From Veillonellaceae bacterium DNF00626 (GTDB taxonomy: Bacteria > Bacillota > Negativicutes > Veillonellales > Dialisteraceae), in assembly GCA_001553355.1 (NCBI GenBank), contig KQ960837.1, forward strand, positions 1 to 47,056: a stretch of DNA of 47,056 nt, in the 5' to 3' direction. A model generated the notes under the pieces. That model saw only the letters and a program-made list of their open reading frames with translations, did not search any database and was not told the origin of the DNA. Position numbers and translations under genes: made by a program. Positions 15,491 to 39,625 of this stretch are shown one piece after another. Numbering within the stretch: position 1 is the stretch's first letter; every line of letters begins with the position of its first letter.

Positions 15491-16174
15491 TCAAAATCCG
15501 CAATGAACTCTTCCGTAAATAATCGCTATTGTCACCAAAAGAACCAATACCAGCATCATATAATCGCCCAACTTCGGTATCACATTTCCCATAAATGTTC
15601 TCTGCTTACCGCCGAACCCTCGAAATTCAAGAGATAACGCCATCGTTTCACTACGCCCCAAAGAACGAAGCATCAATGGTCTAACGATAGACATATACCG
15701 CTTTACTTGGCGGAAAAAATTTCCTTTCACCGCAAGCCCACGACAAGCCTGCGCCTCTCCGATTTCTCGATTTTCTGATATAAAATCCGGAATAAAACGA
15801 AGCCCGGCAGTAAACATAAATGCATATTCATAAGGTACACGAAGTTGCCGTACCATAGCAGTTGTCAAATCCTGAAGCTTGGTAGTCGTTAAAAGATAAA
15901 TAAAAAGCAAAGTCATTCCAAGCATGCGAAGCGCTGCTACATAAGATTCCTCTTTCGTGCCGCCGCCTACATATTCAACCAATCCCAAGAAAGCGGCGAA
16001 AACCACAAGCATCACCACTGCCTTTATATTTCCAAAAAATGCTCGAGCAAGCAATAGCAATACTACTTCTACCCCGCATAAAATCAAAAGACTATACGGT
16101 TCATGAAGGACAAGCGCCCAAACAGCAGTCCCTATGGTCAAAATAATTTTCGTTATCGGTACTAAACTTCTCAT
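15491..16174 (-). CDS. ecfT: ECF transporter transmembrane subunit T
   Basis: A 227-residue energy-coupling-factor T subunit with about 5-6 membrane helices. The coupling-helix Ala-Arg-Gly-type motifs that contact the ATPases appear as EAQACRGLAVKG and LSLEFRGFGG. It follows the second ATPase gene with an ATGA overlap (16171-16174), which sets the start at MRSLVPITK. It forms the membrane scaffold that joins the fused S/A1 protein and A2. Confidence 0.92.
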   Translation of the reverse strand: MRSLVPITKIILTIGTAVWALVLHEPYSLLILCGVEVVLLLLARAFFGNIKAVVMLVVFAAFLGLVEYVGGGTKEESYVAALRMLGMTLLFIYLLTTTKLQDLTTAMVRQLRVPYEYAFMFTAGLRFIPDFISENREIGEAQACRGLAVKGNFFRQVKRYMSIVRPLMLRSLGRSETMALSLEFRGFGGKQRTFMGNVIPKLGDYMMLVLVLLVTIAIIYGRVHCGF

Positions 16175-16989
16175 CGAACACTCGCCCCTTTCAATGCTAA
16201 AAACGTACGGCAAAATACATCCATATCTTTGCAATATGGCGCTCCCGGTAAAGAACGTCCCAAAATCACGGACGGCGGATAAGATAACCCCAAACTTTCC
16301 GGATTATAAGCCCCTGAAAATAACTTCTCCGGCGCTCCATCAAACGCCACCTTCTTCTCTGCAATAACCACCACGCGCGAACAATCTCGAGCCACAATAT
16401 CCATATCATGCGTCACAAAAATCACCGTAATACCCTTATCACAAAGGCGATGCATTAAAGATACTAATTTACTACGTTCTCTTCCATCCTGTCCGCTCGT
16501 CGGTTCATCCAAAACCAAAAACTTTGTATGCATAGCCAAAGCAGAAGCAATCGCCACACGCTGCTGATCTCCACGAGATAACATACGCGGATATTCTTTT
16601 GCCAAATCCGTCAAATCCGTATCATGAAGAGCTTCCTTCACTACAACATCAAGATCCGCTCCCCGTTTCCCCTGCTGATAAGGACCAAAAGCCACTTCCT
16701 CATAAACCGTAGGCATAAACATCTGCCTATCCGGCTGCTGAAATACATAACCGATAAATCGACTCCGCATAGTAGCATCCTCAGAAGTGATATCCATACC
16801 ATCAAAAAATATATTTCCCGATGCCGGATATTCTAAACCTGTCAACAAACGTGTCACTGTCGTTTTACCACTACCATTACGACCGCTCACCGCCACAAAT
16901 TCCCCTCTACCAAAAGAAAGAGAAATACCATCCAACACATACGGATCCTTTTTAGTATACCGAAAACTTACATCTTTAAGCTCCAACAT
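16171..16989 (-). CDS. ecfA2: ECF transporter ATPase A2
   Basis: A 272-residue ABC ATPase. Walker A is SGRNGSGKTT, the Q-loop YVFQQPDRQMFMPTVYEEVA matches the ECF Q-helix pattern, the signature is LSRGDQQRV and Walker B FLVLDEPTSGQD. The start (MLELKDVSF) follows GGGGGACAGGGAC and overlaps the end of the upstream fused gene by 14 bp. It pairs with the A domain of that fusion to make the heterodimeric motor. The end of the protein is extended beyond the usual core, as in other EcfA proteins. Confidence 0.92.
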   Translation of the reverse strand: MLELKDVSFRYTKKDPYVLDGISLSFGRGEFVAVSGRNGSGKTTVTRLLTGLEYPASGNIFFDGMDITSEDATMRSRFIGYVFQQPDRQMFMPTVYEEVAFGPYQQGKRGADLDVVVKEALHDTDLTDLAKEYPRMLSRGDQQRVAIASALAMHTKFLVLDEPTSGQDGRERSKLVSLMHRLCDKGITVIFVTHDMDIVARDCSRVVVIAEKKVAFDGAPEKLFSGAYNPESLGLSYPPSVILGRSLPGAPYCKDMDVFCRTFLALKGASVR

Positions 16990-18466
16990 GTCCCTGTCCC
17001 CCTTCCAATGCATGAACTACCGAATACTCTGCATCCTTCATATTAAAAAATGATTTTTCAAAAGAAATACCGGCTTTTTCCAAAGAAAGCTGTGCACGAA
17101 ACATATCAGGAATAGCCTCTTGATAAACTCCATGCTCATCCATATACCGAAGAACATCACCGGGCATCCCGTCACAAAGAATTTTCCCTTGATCCAAAAG
17201 AACAAAACGATTAGCATATGGCAAAGTTGCCTCCAAATGATGCTCAGCTACCACTACCGTAAGCCCCTCACGACGATTCAACTCGCCAACCATTTCATAA
17301 AATTCCCCAATACCTTCCGGATCAAGAGAACTCGTAGGCTCATCAAATACCAAGATATCAGGCTCCTCGGCAAGCACAGCCGCCACTACCAACCGCTGCC
17401 GCTGTCCGCCGGATAACGTAGCCACACGACGTCCTTCCATTCCGCCTAAATGCACTTTTTCCAAAGCTTCTGCTGAGCGACGACGAATCTCTTCCGGTGA
17501 AAACCCATGATTCTCCAAAGTAAATGCCATTTCCTCACCCACCGTGAGCGTCACAATCTGCGATGTATAATCCGACAAAATCACGCCGATACTATACGCC
17601 AATTCAGCAATACTCGTTTGCGTTGTTGCCTTTCCATCAGTAAAAACCATGCCGGTCATCGTTCCGCCATAATAATGAGGAACTGCCCCTGCCATTGCCA
17701 TAAGAAGAGTCGTCTTTCCCGCGCCATTAGGCCCTGTCACCACCAAGAAATCACCCTTCTTTACATCCAATTGAATATCACGAAGTACCGGTTCTTCAGA
17801 AAAAGGATAAGAAAAACTCAAATGCTCTACACTAATTACCCCTTCACCCGATTGTTTCAAAACCAGATTTTTATGATCACTATTCTTCACGCCGGACACC
17901 TTCATATATCCGAAAGACTGAAACAAATGAAATGCCGGGAAATAAAGAAATGGTGTAATCAATGCATTTCCCACACCTACCAAAGCCACCATCGGGAGCA
18001 TTGCATAAAGATAAACCTTCTGAGGAATCCCCATAACCAAAGTCAAAATAGAGACAAAAACAAATCCACTGACTATAGTTGCCAAAAAGCCGGTTATCAT
18101 AGGCTTCACATCAAACTTGCCAATTTTTAATGCCGGCACCGAATGAGCAAAGAAAGCGACCACAAACGATGCGAAAAACTCACTAAAGAAATTACCATAA
18201 GGAAATGCAGACTTAGACGTGAACACTTCCATAAGTGCTGCCACCATACAAATACCCACACACTGACGATATGACGGCTTCGTAAGCAAAATAGCCACCA
18301 CATACGTAGCAATCATCCAGTTAGGAGTAAACCCTGCCACCGACGGAGACACCAAATGTAAAATCATTCCGATAGCAAGCATCAAAGTAGAAATAGTCAA
18401 CCACCTAAGCTCACCCCCTCGTGCCTTTACAAAAATGAGCTTAGATACATCTACCACAGACTCCAT
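16976..18466 (-). CDS. Fused ECF S-component (TrpP-like) and ATPase A1
   Basis: A 496-residue fusion. Residues 1 to about 200 hold six hydrophobic segments of an S-component; LHLVSPSVAGFTPNWM and TSKSAFPYGNF resemble the tryptophan transporter family TrpP. From about 215 an ABC ATPase follows: ISVEHLSFSYP, Walker A VTGPNGAGKTT, signature LSGGQRQRL and Walker B ILVFDEPTSSLD. S-components are normally separate proteins, so specificity and motor are covalently joined here. TAGGAGGG sets the start at 18466. It lies directly behind a T-box with specifier UGG, which makes tryptophan the predicted substrate. Specificity is inference from regulation plus weak family likeness. Confidence 0.82.
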   Translation of the reverse strand: MESVVDVSKLIFVKARGGELRWLTISTLMLAIGMILHLVSPSVAGFTPNWMIATYVVAILLTKPSYRQCVGICMVAALMEVFTSKSAFPYGNFFSEFFASFVVAFFAHSVPALKIGKFDVKPMITGFLATIVSGFVFVSILTLVMGIPQKVYLYAMLPMVALVGVGNALITPFLYFPAFHLFQSFGYMKVSGVKNSDHKNLVLKQSGEGVISVEHLSFSYPFSEEPVLRDIQLDVKKGDFLVVTGPNGAGKTTLLMAMAGAVPHYYGGTMTGMVFTDGKATTQTSIAELAYSIGVILSDYTSQIVTLTVGEEMAFTLENHGFSPEEIRRRSAEALEKVHLGGMEGRRVATLSGGQRQRLVVAAVLAEEPDILVFDEPTSSLDPEGIGEFYEMVGELNRREGLTVVVAEHHLEATLPYANRFVLLDQGKILCDGMPGDVLRYMDEHGVYQEAIPDMFRAQLSLEKAGISFEKSFFNMKDAEYSVVHALEGGQGHVGA

Positions 18467-18484
18467 AACAATCCCTCCTAAAAA

Positions 18485-18749
18485 ATAATAAAAAAACCTT
18501 TCATTCCTCCGCAAATGCGAAGGGACGAAAGGAATTAATTCCGCGGTACCACCCTTATTGACTAAAAGTCCAACTCATGGCCAACACCATTATTCCCTAT
18601 AACGGGAGACCCCCGGCGGCTCCTACACCAAACGGTTCAGACCGCATCTCACAAGTCCATTCATGACAACTATTGCACCGCACTCCCACTTCCGGCGGCT
18701 CCCTGAACCAAATCATTATCACTACTCTTCTTGATCCTCGATTTGAATT
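18485..18749 (-). promoter_or_regulatory. T-box leader, specifier UGG (tryptophan)
   Basis: The minus strand carries the T-box core AGGGTGGTACCGCGG (18541-18555) and a terminator made of CCTTTC/GAAAGG arms and a long T-run (about 18485-18532). The Stem I base GGTTCAG/CTGAACC and the GAAGAGTAGT motif lie upstream. Aligning the block after the specifier with the second T-box in this window (ACTTGTGAGATGC versus ATCCCTGAGGTGC) places the specifier at 18657-18659, reading UGG. Uncharged tRNA-Trp would stabilise the antiterminator and switch on the ECF operon. The variable base in UGGU would pair with G73 of tRNA-Trp only by wobble, a small caution; an AUG four bases earlier is the alternative. 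Confidence 0.85.
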
Positions 18750-18804: not shown

Positions 18805-19647
18805 TCATTCCCCATCAAAAAACACAGCAACCACTTTTTCTCCGCCATAGATAGACAAGCCGCACAAACAAAGATCAGACAATACAGGGACAGTCAACAA
18901 TAGCAAGGGATCCGCCACCATAAGAAAAGGCGAATCCACAGGAAGATAATGAAAAATAACCGACGGAAGAAATACAAGCGCCACATAAAACAAAGCAGAC
19001 ACCACCGTCTGAACAAAACGTTTTTTCCTAACACCGGTCAATGCAAAATAAAAATAAAAAGCAAAAAACCCCATAACTAAAACCAATTTTATAACAAAAA
19101 TCTGCTTCAATACCGCTGCCAAAAAGAATATAAGCATAAAAGGCGCCATCATATTCATTTGATACCACATCACCGGAAGAAGAGCAACTATCACGGAAAA
19201 AGGTATCACCCCACTCAAAAACGCAGTTGTCAGCCAATATTGAATAAAATCAGATTTCCCCTTCAAATACCTATAACACCAAACCGCTCCTTCTACCGCA
19301 AAAGCAGACAAAATAACAAAAGAAATCATACAAACCAAAGCCGCCAAAACGAACAAGATATATGAATCCTGATACAATGCTTGCCAACCATTAAGCAAGC
19401 ACCAACAAAAGAGTGTCAAAAATACAATCAACGAAGGCCATATCACCACATGAGCCACGGCGCGCGAGCGATAATAATCCTCACCCCGTTGACGAAAACG
19501 AAACAACTGATACACGATCGGAACAATCCAACCGATCCCTATAAAAACTAATAATGCCACCTGAAGTGCTGCTACGGTATGCCACAAAATTCCCACTGCA
19601 CTCACAGGACATAACAAAATCAAATACCAAGACAAATCACGTATCAT
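18805..19647 (-). CDS. Polytopic membrane protein of unknown function
   Basis: A 280-residue protein with about 8 hydrophobic segments and short charged loops, for example RFRQRGEDYYRSR and TGVRKKRF. I recognise no family. AGGTGATTTT before the ATG at 19647 (MIRDLSWYL) sets the start. It is flanked by the strong terminator at 19688-19729 upstream and the T-box promoter downstream, so it appears monocistronic. Its stop lies only 21 bp before the -35 of the ECF operon, so read-through into the T-box is possible. A role in transport is only a guess from topology. Confidence 0.7.
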   Translation of the reverse strand: MIRDLSWYLILLCPVSAVGILWHTVAALQVALLVFIGIGWIVPIVYQLFRFRQRGEDYYRSRAVAHVVIWPSLIVFLTLFCWCLLNGWQALYQDSYILFVLAALVCMISFVILSAFAVEGAVWCYRYLKGKSDFIQYWLTTAFLSGVIPFSVIVALLPVMWYQMNMMAPFMLIFFLAAVLKQIFVIKLVLVMGFFAFYFYFALTGVRKKRFVQTVVSALFYVALVFLPSVIFHYLPVDSPFLMVADPLLLLTVPVLSDLCLCGLSIYGGEKVVAVFFDGE

Positions 19648-19687
19648 AAAATCACCTCGCATCTATTTTACCATAATATTCATAGCA

Positions 19688-19729
19688 AACAGAAAAGGAC
19701 TTTGTCTGCATACAAAGTCCTTTTCTGTT
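19688..19729. terminator. Strong hairpin terminator upstream of the membrane protein gene
   Basis: A perfect 18-bp inverted repeat (19688-19705 and 19712-19729) with a 6-base loop; A-rich and T-rich ends allow termination on either strand. On the minus strand it ends the transcript that starts at the cobalamin riboswitch. Confidence 0.8.
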
Positions 19730-19744
19730 TGTTAAGTGTACTCA

Positions 19745-19863
19745 TGAAGTGCTACCCCAAGATATTTTCACTTCACTATATTGTAAGCCTCCCCCAATAA
19801 TAGCTTACTTGATTAAACAGTCATTGATTGTCTTGTGATCTTCTCATTATTATTTATCACAAG
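19745..19863. other. Cluster of three hairpins behind the cobalamin riboswitch
   Basis: Three inverted repeats lie in a row: TGAAGTG/CACTTCA (19745-19775), GTAAGC/GCTTAC (19783-19808, enclosing a GGGGGAGG on the minus strand) and CTTGTGAT/ATCACAAG (19832-19863, overlapping the end of the small ORF). None has a T-run. The spacing suggests an ordered RNA structure or an mRNA-stabilising 3' region. Confidence 0.45.
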
Positions 19864-19933
19864 GGAGAGAAATAAAAAACGCCACAAGAAATATAAACGT
19901 AATCATCCAAAAAACAATTACATCTAAACTCAT
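19850..19933 (-). CDS. Possible 27-residue single-span membrane peptide
   Basis: The first open frame after the cobalamin riboswitch. It encodes 27 residues starting MSLDVIVFW, with a continuous hydrophobic core, and ends SLPCDK and stop, so one membrane helix is predicted. No clear Shine-Dalgarno precedes the ATG (it follows GCGCGGC), which lowers confidence. No known family recognised. The ATG sits about 25 bp after the B12 box, where a riboswitch could control access to it. Confidence 0.3.
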   Translation of the reverse strand: MSLDVIVFWMITFIFLVAFFISLPCDK

Positions 19934-19954
19934 GCCGCGCAAGTTACTAACTAA

Positions 19955-20105
19955 AGAATTGATGGCACTCTGACTTCGTTCATCGCCTTACCATCATCTC
20001 GTGATGACATTGATGGCAAAACTCACTTCACAGTTACGGGCTAGCTCCGGACTCCCACCGAAATTTCCCATGACAACTCTCATTTATTCAATTGACTATT
20101 TAATC
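19955..20105 (-). promoter_or_regulatory. Cobalamin riboswitch
   Basis: The minus strand carries the conserved core in order: TGGGAA, then CGGTGGGAGTCCGG, GCTAGCCCGTAACTGTGA, a GATGATGGTAAGGCGATGA segment and the B12-box-like AAGTCAGAGTGCC. This matches the adenosylcobalamin/cobalamin riboswitch consensus in sequence and spacing. No ordinary cobalamin gene follows: only a 27-codon ORF, a hairpin cluster and a strong terminator come before the next gene. Confidence 0.82.
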
Positions 20106-20247
20106 TTTTATTATTTTAGCACAAATATTTTTTCCGTGCAACACCATTCATGAATAGAAATTTCCCTAATTATCGACTTCCGAAAAAATATTTCATCTAA
20201 ACATTCGATTAATTATAAGTAATTCATACTGCTGATACGAACCAGCA
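20106..20247. other. Short AT-rich gap between riboswitch and helicase gene
   Basis: It holds the presumed promoter region of the riboswitch transcript and the 3' end region of the helicase gene. No further feature is recognised. Confidence 0.4.
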
Positions 20248-21525
20248 TTACTTACCCCAACGCCCCCGTCTATTTCCTTTTTCCGTGTCATTCTTTCTCT
20301 TTTTTCGCATATCTGCCCCTTTGTGTCCCAGTGCCTTATGCTCCTTCTTCTTCGTAGGCTTATACATCCCGGGCACCACAGATTTTGTCACTGCCGCCTT
20401 CTTTACACGACGTACCTCACCCTTTTCATCATACTTCGTAATCTTTTCCTTAATCGTTCGCTCCAACTTACGAAGTATAGAAATATCCTCCGGCGTAGCA
20501 TAGGTCAGAGACACCCCTTCCATGCCGGCTCTACCGGTACGCCCGATGCGATGAATATAATACTCCAAATTACGCGGAATATCATAATTAAATACATGAG
20601 TGACACCCACGACATCAATCCCTCTGGCAGCAATATCAGACGCCACTAAAACTTGTATCCTTGCCTTTTCAAACTCACGAATGACCTGATTACGCTGTCC
20701 CTGCGTCATATCACCATGAATTTCATCCACTGCTAACTCCGTATCACACTGAAGTTTTTCCGCCAATTCATGAGCGCCCTCACGAGTATTACAAAAAACC
20801 ACCGCCAAATAAGGATGAAACTCCTCCAAATGCTTCAAAAGCAATGCATATTTCCTTGTCTTTGTTGTTTCATACACACGCTGCTCCACCGTCGATGCCA
20901 CAGCTTTTTCTGCCACATCAATATAACACGCTGCCTTCATATACTTATGTGCTAATTTTTTTGCTTCCATAGGCATCGTTGCACTAAAAAGACAAAGCTG
21001 CCGCCTCTTCGGCGTCGCATCAATAACCGCTTCTATATCCTCTCTAAACCCGGCAGCCAACATTTGATCCGCCTCATCCAATACAATCGTCTTCACTTCA
21101 CCAAGGCGAATACTACCGCGCCGCAAATGATCCATCAAACGTCCCGGCGTTCCAATAACAATATGAGGATCACGCTTCAATTTCCGGAGCTGATTCTCAA
21201 TCGTTCTACCACCGATAATATCCACCGCATCTACACCGTGACTCTCCGCCAAAGGTCTCAGCACCTCAAAAATTTGCTTCGCCAACTCACGCGTGGGTGT
21301 TAAAATAACCCCTTGAGTTCCACGCTCACTATTTATTCTTTCCACCAACGGCAAAAGATATGCCAAAGTCTTCCCCGTTCCCGTTTCCGACTTTCCGACC
21401 ACATCCTTACCCTTCAAAAGAACCGGAATAGCTCTTTCCTGAATCAAAGTAGGCACCTTAATTCCACGATGATACAAAAAATCCGCCGACATTTGACTCA
21501 TTCCTAATTGCACAAAAGCATTCAT
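20248..21525 (-). CDS. DEAD-box RNA helicase (CshA/DeaD-like)
   Basis: A 425-residue two-domain ATP-dependent RNA helicase: Q motif near TLIQERAIPVLL, motif I SETGTGKT, Ia PTRELAKQ, Ib TPGRLMDHL, II DEAD, III SAT, V ARGIDV and VI HRIGRTGRAG. The C-terminus is a short Lys/Arg-rich tail (RKKRKNDTEKGNRRGRWGK) likely to bind RNA; no DbpA or long C-terminal domain. Such proteins act in ribosome assembly, cold adaptation and RNA turnover. AGGACGGGTA precedes the ATG. It appears monocistronic. Confidence 0.93.
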   Translation of the reverse strand: MNAFVQLGMSQMSADFLYHRGIKVPTLIQERAIPVLLKGKDVVGKSETGTGKTLAYLLPLVERINSERGTQGVILTPTRELAKQIFEVLRPLAESHGVDAVDIIGGRTIENQLRKLKRDPHIVIGTPGRLMDHLRRGSIRLGEVKTIVLDEADQMLAAGFREDIEAVIDATPKRRQLCLFSATMPMEAKKLAHKYMKAACYIDVAEKAVASTVEQRVYETTKTRKYALLLKHLEEFHPYLAVVFCNTREGAHELAEKLQCDTELAVDEIHGDMTQGQRNQVIREFEKARIQVLVASDIAARGIDVVGVTHVFNYDIPRNLEYYIHRIGRTGRAGMEGVSLTYATPEDISILRKLERTIKEKITKYDEKGEVRRVKKAAVTKSVVPGMYKPTKKKEHKALGHKGADMRKKRKNDTEKGNRRGRWGK

Positions 21526-39550: not shown

Positions 39551-39625
39551 TGGAGGCGGTGCTCGGATTCGAACACGAGGATACAGGTCTTGCGGACCAT
39601 TGCCTTACCTCTTGGCTACACCGCC
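39551..39625 (-). tRNA. tRNA-Cys (GCA), structurally unusual
   Basis: A 75-nt tRNA with a perfect 7-bp acceptor stem (GGCGGTG/CACCGCC), a normal D-arm, anticodon GCA and encoded TCCA, i.e. U73 as in tRNA-Cys. Three defects stand out: position 33 is C (loop CCGCAAG) instead of the near-invariant U; the anticodon stem has two mismatches at 27-43 (A-G) and 28-42 (U-U); and the T-stem CTCGTG/CCGAG pairs only with a bulged U. The promoter is intact, so it is probably transcribed. It may be a decayed second copy or a specialised variant. Confidence 0.85.

Follow-up and report, generated by a model that had tools for sequence, protein, structure and literature searches.

Dissection of two corrinoid riboswitches has described a loop-loop contact between L5 and L13 (PMC10653944). 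In the repressing switch dissected there, P13 and the terminator coexist; in the activating cobT switch of Alkalihalobacillus halodurans, the 3' side of P13/L13 is also the 5' arm of the terminator, and the two structures are mutually exclusive (PMC10653944). That switch is the only activating one described, all other corrinoid riboswitches being reported to repress (PMC10653944). Two further systems are related: EutX of Enterococcus and Rli55 of Listeria place a noncoding RNA instead of a gene behind a B12 riboswitch (PMC7602753), and the ppe2 leader of Mycobacterium tuberculosis places an atypical B12 riboswitch and a short leader ORF before a non-metabolic gene (PMC11260477).

The window analysed here, a stretch of 47,056 nucleotides from Veillonellaceae bacterium DNF00626, corresponds to contig C24 in a draft genome of 1.59 Mb, and holds an element that resembles each of these systems in part. 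With the A. halodurans cobT switch it shares an L5-L13 contact in which L5 (GCCCG) has a bulged C, and a predicted exclusion of the terminator by P13; it differs in that its sister elements control surface proteins and not cobT, and its sign is predicted; the published switch responds to cobinamide. Like EutX and Rli55 it is followed by noncoding sequence, but the latter two contain ANTAR sites and are produced when B12 is absent, while for the window RNA we predict extension when B12 is present. The ppe2 switch is comparable in its short leader ORF, as several autotransporter members of the window element's group have leader mini-ORFs, but it is a translational OFF switch of a different aptamer class. 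The reading that we prefer, with a probability of about 0.6, is that the window element is an orphan riboswitch of a surface-protein group in the Negativicutes, that is, a B12-ON autotransporter leader whose gene was lost. The features are collected in Table 1.

Table 1. Predicted features of the riboswitch locus and of related loci (positions refer to the window unless a locus is named)
Feature	Position	Strand	Remarks
Upstream gene, DEAD-box RNA helicase	20248..21525	minus	
Promoter-like site	20113..20141	minus	TTGCAC (20141-20136), 17-nt spacer, TGC-TAAAAT, extended -10
-10 of promoter-like site	20118-20113	minus	putative, from sequence
Corrinoid (cobalamin) riboswitch aptamer	19947..20115	minus	RF00174 30.1 bits, genome E 4.8e-6
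L5 kissing-loop sequence GCCCG	20037..20041	minus	GCC(C)G pairs with CGGC of L13
Peripheral stem, 10 pairs	19986..20021	minus	arms 20021-20012 and 19995-19986
P13/L13	19928..19944	minus	ACTT GCGCGGCAT GAGT; L13 has CGGC (19937-19934) and AUG (19933-19931)
Intrinsic terminator 1 (expression platform)	19874..19939	minus	inner 15-bp stem, 3' arm to 19880, U-run 19879-19874
27-codon AUG frame	19850..19933	minus	probable by-product of L13 and terminator 1
Stretch transcribed when terminator 1 is open	19744..19863	minus	three weak hairpins
Three hairpins	19832-19863, 19783-19808, 19744-19776	minus	
Strong Shine-Dalgarno-like GGGGGAGG	19795-19788	minus	then GUG AAG UGA, a two-codon frame
Terminator 2, 18-bp inverted repeat CAGAAAAGGACUUUGU...ACAAAGUCCUUUUCUG	19690..19727	minus	
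Next gene, 285-aa membrane protein without Pfam match	18805..19662	minus	probably not the riboswitch target
Leader mini-ORFs	L014 after 5544, L016 after 1910, L188-L191		
Subgroup of activating-type architecture before surface-protein genes	L014:5396-8824, L016:1771-1910, L174:11052-16625, L188-L191, L193		

A divergent corrinoid aptamer

The initial annotation had recognized a cobalamin riboswitch on the minus strand, and covariance-model searches bear this out. With the Rfam family RF00174 the window copy shares P5, P6, a long peripheral stem, the L5-L13 contact and a core of ACUGU plus an AGUCAGA-type sequence, but it belongs to a divergent subgroup, lacks a target gene, and scores 1.4 bits under the gathering score of 31.5, a figure that is a search threshold and not a structural feature. 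A plain Rfam scan of the window is silent because the aptamer scores below this cut-off. A second model, R2, was built from three sister elements of the same genome (C64a, C64b and C18) and two elements of a genome from another family (G021), with the window sequence left out; it scores the window at 115 bits (20071..19928, minus; E 1.1e-27 genome-wide). Because R2 owes nothing to the window sequence, this score indicates that the aptamer is almost certainly real and homologous to the sister elements.

The alignment of these six members points the same way: 96% of its cells are paired, both sides have changed in 15 of the 26 pairs, and none of 500 shuffles does as well. P5, P6 and the peripheral stem are kept by compensatory changes, and in the peripheral stem nine of the ten pairs are changed on both sides among members, in the alignments of four and of six alike. 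No decay is apparent in the aptamer and switch of the window.

Sister elements precede surface-protein genes

BLASTN with the whole unit found two places in the same genome, both on C64 and both before autotransporter-like genes, that are 76% and 70% identical to it. The third sister, C18, reaches 41.2 bits by RF00174, above the cut-off, and precedes an autotransporter. The first G021 element is followed by genes for OmpH, a YbjN-like protein, a TonB-dependent receptor and an autotransporter-like protein of 3326 residues, in which a Pfam barrel was not found; the second precedes genes for YadA-type trimeric autotransporters. Extending the R2 search to 300 genomes of the class Negativicutes gave strong matches before large surface-protein genes in five further genomes (G134, G246, G140, G192 and G177). 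The targets in G140 and G134 carry a Pfam autotransporter barrel, and homology to the autotransporters of the present genome was shown for targets in G140 (41% over 871 aa), G134, G177 and G021. More distant R2 matches precede TonB-dependent receptors and OmpH-like genes, mostly without the shared terminator. Judged from sequence, the targets of the group are large surface proteins, most of them autotransporters. Several autotransporter members also carry a strong Shine-Dalgarno sequence and a mini-ORF of 9-12 codons between terminator and gene (Table 1). Our literature search on cobalamin riboswitches with autotransporters or with Dialister returned nothing on the present system.

A few loci seen along the way deserve mention in their own right. 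One strong group member (L194, G189:C18:9680-9825) precedes a 208-residue ORF that is MerR-type regulator-like and not a surface protein. A frame of 3548 residues in G177 (L225:8155-18801) joins an autotransporter-like passenger and barrel to the plug domain of a TonB-dependent receptor. At L015:13459-14434, YbjN-like and OmpH-like genes follow a truncated B12 riboswitch that scores 31.3 bits, and a similar one precedes an OmpH-like gene in G007.

An orphan copy and its possible history

Nearly every family genome checked has the helicase and membrane-protein genes that flank the element next to each other; the gaps that were measured span 64-503 nt, and in these relatives neither a riboswitch nor any other gene lies between the two. 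Because the relatives keep the flanking genes together without it, we take the unit to have been added in the present lineage. A leader with its autotransporter would have arrived between the two genes, and the coding part would then have been lost. The relic with a lost target proposed in the initial annotation is thus the best fit, with the amendment that, going by the targets of the sisters, the gene lost was likely an autotransporter and not a B12 transporter. That loss is inferred from the sisters and not seen, because local alignment and translated comparison found no autotransporter remnant between the two terminators.

Loss of this kind does occur in the genome, to judge from a locus at about 116.1-116.6 kb of C39 (L141:6030-6750, minus), where a weak riboswitch-like match (17.5 bits) is followed by a signal-peptide stub that runs into the end of a barrel and which we read as an autotransporter deletion relic. 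The Shine-Dalgarno-like sequence and two-codon frame downstream of terminator 1 in the window may likewise be the remnant of an autotransporter-leader mini-ORF. The undecayed aptamer and switch fit a recent loss and continued use equally.

Under continued use, the unit could make a functional small RNA controlled by B12, with another RNA or a protein as its target; this reading is possible but doubtful. The unit has its own promoter-like site, an undecayed aptamer and switch and a strong terminator 2, EutX and Rli55 provide a precedent (PMC7602753), and elsewhere in this genome a conserved array of noncoding hairpins follows a tandem B12 riboswitch. Against it stands the content of the roughly 150 nt between terminators 1 and 2. 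As the initial annotation stated, the 18-bp inverted repeat is present and no full-length gene lies ahead of the membrane-protein ORF; the three hairpins it listed can be folded, but only slightly better than shuffled sequence (z -1.5, 27/300 shuffles), and 187 of 300 shuffles contain three non-overlapping stems of 6 bp or more, 32 of 300 three of 7 bp or more. BLASTN detected no homologue of the 3' part of the unit, whether in the rest of the genome or among 40 relatives, and a DNA search of the 40 relatives with the whole unit returned only the same-genome sister aptamers and one short low-complexity match. Duplexes of the window RNA with the tested autotransporter and neighbour messages were no better than those of shuffles.

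Although the genome encodes one ANTAR protein, the 461-nt unit contains no ANTAR dual hairpins with A..G.. hexaloops, and an ANTAR-sequestering RNA was rejected on this ground. Rfam microRNA matches at terminator 2 lie far under the cut-offs and reflect a perfect hairpin by chance; terminator 2 itself could end transcription in both directions. The small-RNA option of the initial annotation is therefore retained as tentative, the ANTAR-loop and duplex tests having given it no positive evidence in the window, and we lean towards a relic rather than a functional small RNA.

The tandem element just mentioned is the stronger candidate for a B12-controlled noncoding RNA. At C39:13188-13632 and in seven other family genomes, two tandem class-I B12 riboswitches are followed by several hundred gene-free nucleotides that contain two to four hairpins, whose loops carry AGGGAA, as well as a terminator of their own (loci L001, L015 at C39:12500-13650 on the minus strand, L031, L032, L033, L034, L042, L043, L045 and, in another family, L159). 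The gene that comes next varies between genera, being glutathione peroxidase, copper-amine-oxidase-like, UPF0597 or pnp. G018, which belongs to another family, also has similar hairpins behind a tandem pair. No Rfam family matches this RNA. A role as CsrA sponge was discarded, CsrA (PF02599) being absent from all 12 family genomes.

Architecture and sign of the switch

Covariation among the members supports the L5-L13 kissing contact at the sequence level: GCC(C)G faces CGGC or UGGC, in C18 GUC(C)G faces CGAC (C-G to U-A), and three of the four pairs persist in both G021 elements. P13 is short, with 4-5 bp. Directly 3' of the core, the four elements of the genome (window, C64a, C64b and C18) have the sequence UGCGYGRCAURAGU in common. 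The 5' arm of terminator 1, CGC.GCA.GAG (19939-19929), is the 3' side of L13/P13, hence P13 and the terminator are predicted to exclude each other. When the first six members were folded from UGCGYGRCAURAGU to the next U-run, all six gave a long stem with the L13 element as its 5' arm and a U-run at the end of its 3' arm, the form of an intrinsic terminator. In most members the duplex of L13 and the 3' arm surpasses shuffled arms, with p 0.053 in the window alone and 0.000 to 0.19 in ten other members; 10 of the 11 fall within 0.000-0.053, and C18 is at 0.19. A separate, stand-alone terminator was not found in the window, the best within 200 nt being -0.5 kcal/mol. Control class-I switches of Dialister relatives, by contrast, mostly have a compact separate terminator (e.g. 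UCCACCUUUUCUGACGCAGAGGUGGA-UUUUUUU), a contrast that is not absolute, as no clear separate terminator was seen in some controls, and weak separate hairpins occur in a few subgroup members.

Because this arrangement of P13 and terminator is that of the activating A. halodurans cobT switch, we predict that B12 probably turns the window switch on. Without corrinoid, the RNA would fold into terminator 1 and transcription would stop after about 230 nt. With corrinoid, L5 would kiss L13, P13 would form, terminator 1 would be blocked and polymerase would continue, reaching an autotransporter or similar surface gene in the sister elements. In the window it would reach only terminator 2, yielding a noncoding transcript some 420 nt long.

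The opposite sign, that of an ordinary B12-OFF switch, is unlikely. Here the 3' strand of P3 would pair with L13 as an antiterminator without B12, and B12 would free L13 for the terminator. Such repression is reported for all corrinoid riboswitches but one (PMC10653944), and five of the first six members have a P3 3' strand (GUGCC) complementary to the L13 sequence GGCAY. The pairing fails in C18, however, where the terminator pairing is kept, and P13 and terminator coexist in the dissected repressing switch, whereas in the window group they appear mutually exclusive. More doubtful again is the combination of the activating sign with function in trans, in which the window RNA would be a B12-induced small RNA derived from an activating autotransporter-switch group found across the Negativicutes.

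Neighbouring genes and promoters

Transcription of the unit is expected, from sequence, to start near 20106, below a promoter-like site that matches 8 of 12 consensus bases and lies under the threshold of the promoter scan. The nearest named records to the helicase protein upstream are from Dialister, at about 70% identity. For the membrane-protein gene, a -10-like TAAAAT of its own (19671-19666) follows terminator 2. This gene is the next one and lies on the same strand as the riboswitch, but that the switch drives it by read-through is highly improbable, given the 18-bp stem of terminator 2 in between and the agreement of its -10-like site with that of relatives without the riboswitch.

Further along the minus strand, at 15491-18747, a T-box leader stands before genes that probably encode a tryptophan ECF transporter: a TrpP-plus-ATPase fusion, another ATPase and an EcfT protein of the CbiQ type. 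At 39554-39625, also minus, Rfam finds a tRNA that ARAGORN does not report.

The 27-codon frame

The initial annotation had listed a 27-codon hydrophobic ORF, the three hairpins and the 18-bp terminator behind the aptamer, overlooking terminator 1 with its U-run. The AUG frame exists, but it consists of L13 and the terminator stem: its AUG sits inside UGCGYGRCAURAGU, no Shine-Dalgarno sequence lies ahead of it, and the translation is hydrophobic because U-rich terminator sequence reads as Phe/Leu/Ile/Val. Behind the sister riboswitches, the frame after the same site has 12 codons in C64a and 5 in C64b, and there is no AUG in C18, in G021 or in members from other families. From these comparisons the frame is very probably not a gene. 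The B12-controlled membrane micropeptide that the open frame and its hydrophobic translation had suggested is scarcely credible, as start and frame fall in L13 and the terminator, which explains them, and neither conservation in the sisters nor a Shine-Dalgarno sequence accompanies them. This illusion of a micropeptide created by a terminator is a caution in calling small ORFs behind riboswitches.

Implications for the Negativicutes

The literature that we searched describes one activating corrinoid riboswitch (2023); if our reading of the architecture is right, the Negativicutes have a whole group of such switches. The orphan copy would be an example of such a leader losing its gene or becoming a regulatory RNA. 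The targets of the group, if this is true, would be giant autotransporters and not B12 metabolism genes, and B12 would act as a signal by which gut and oral bacteria remodel their surface.
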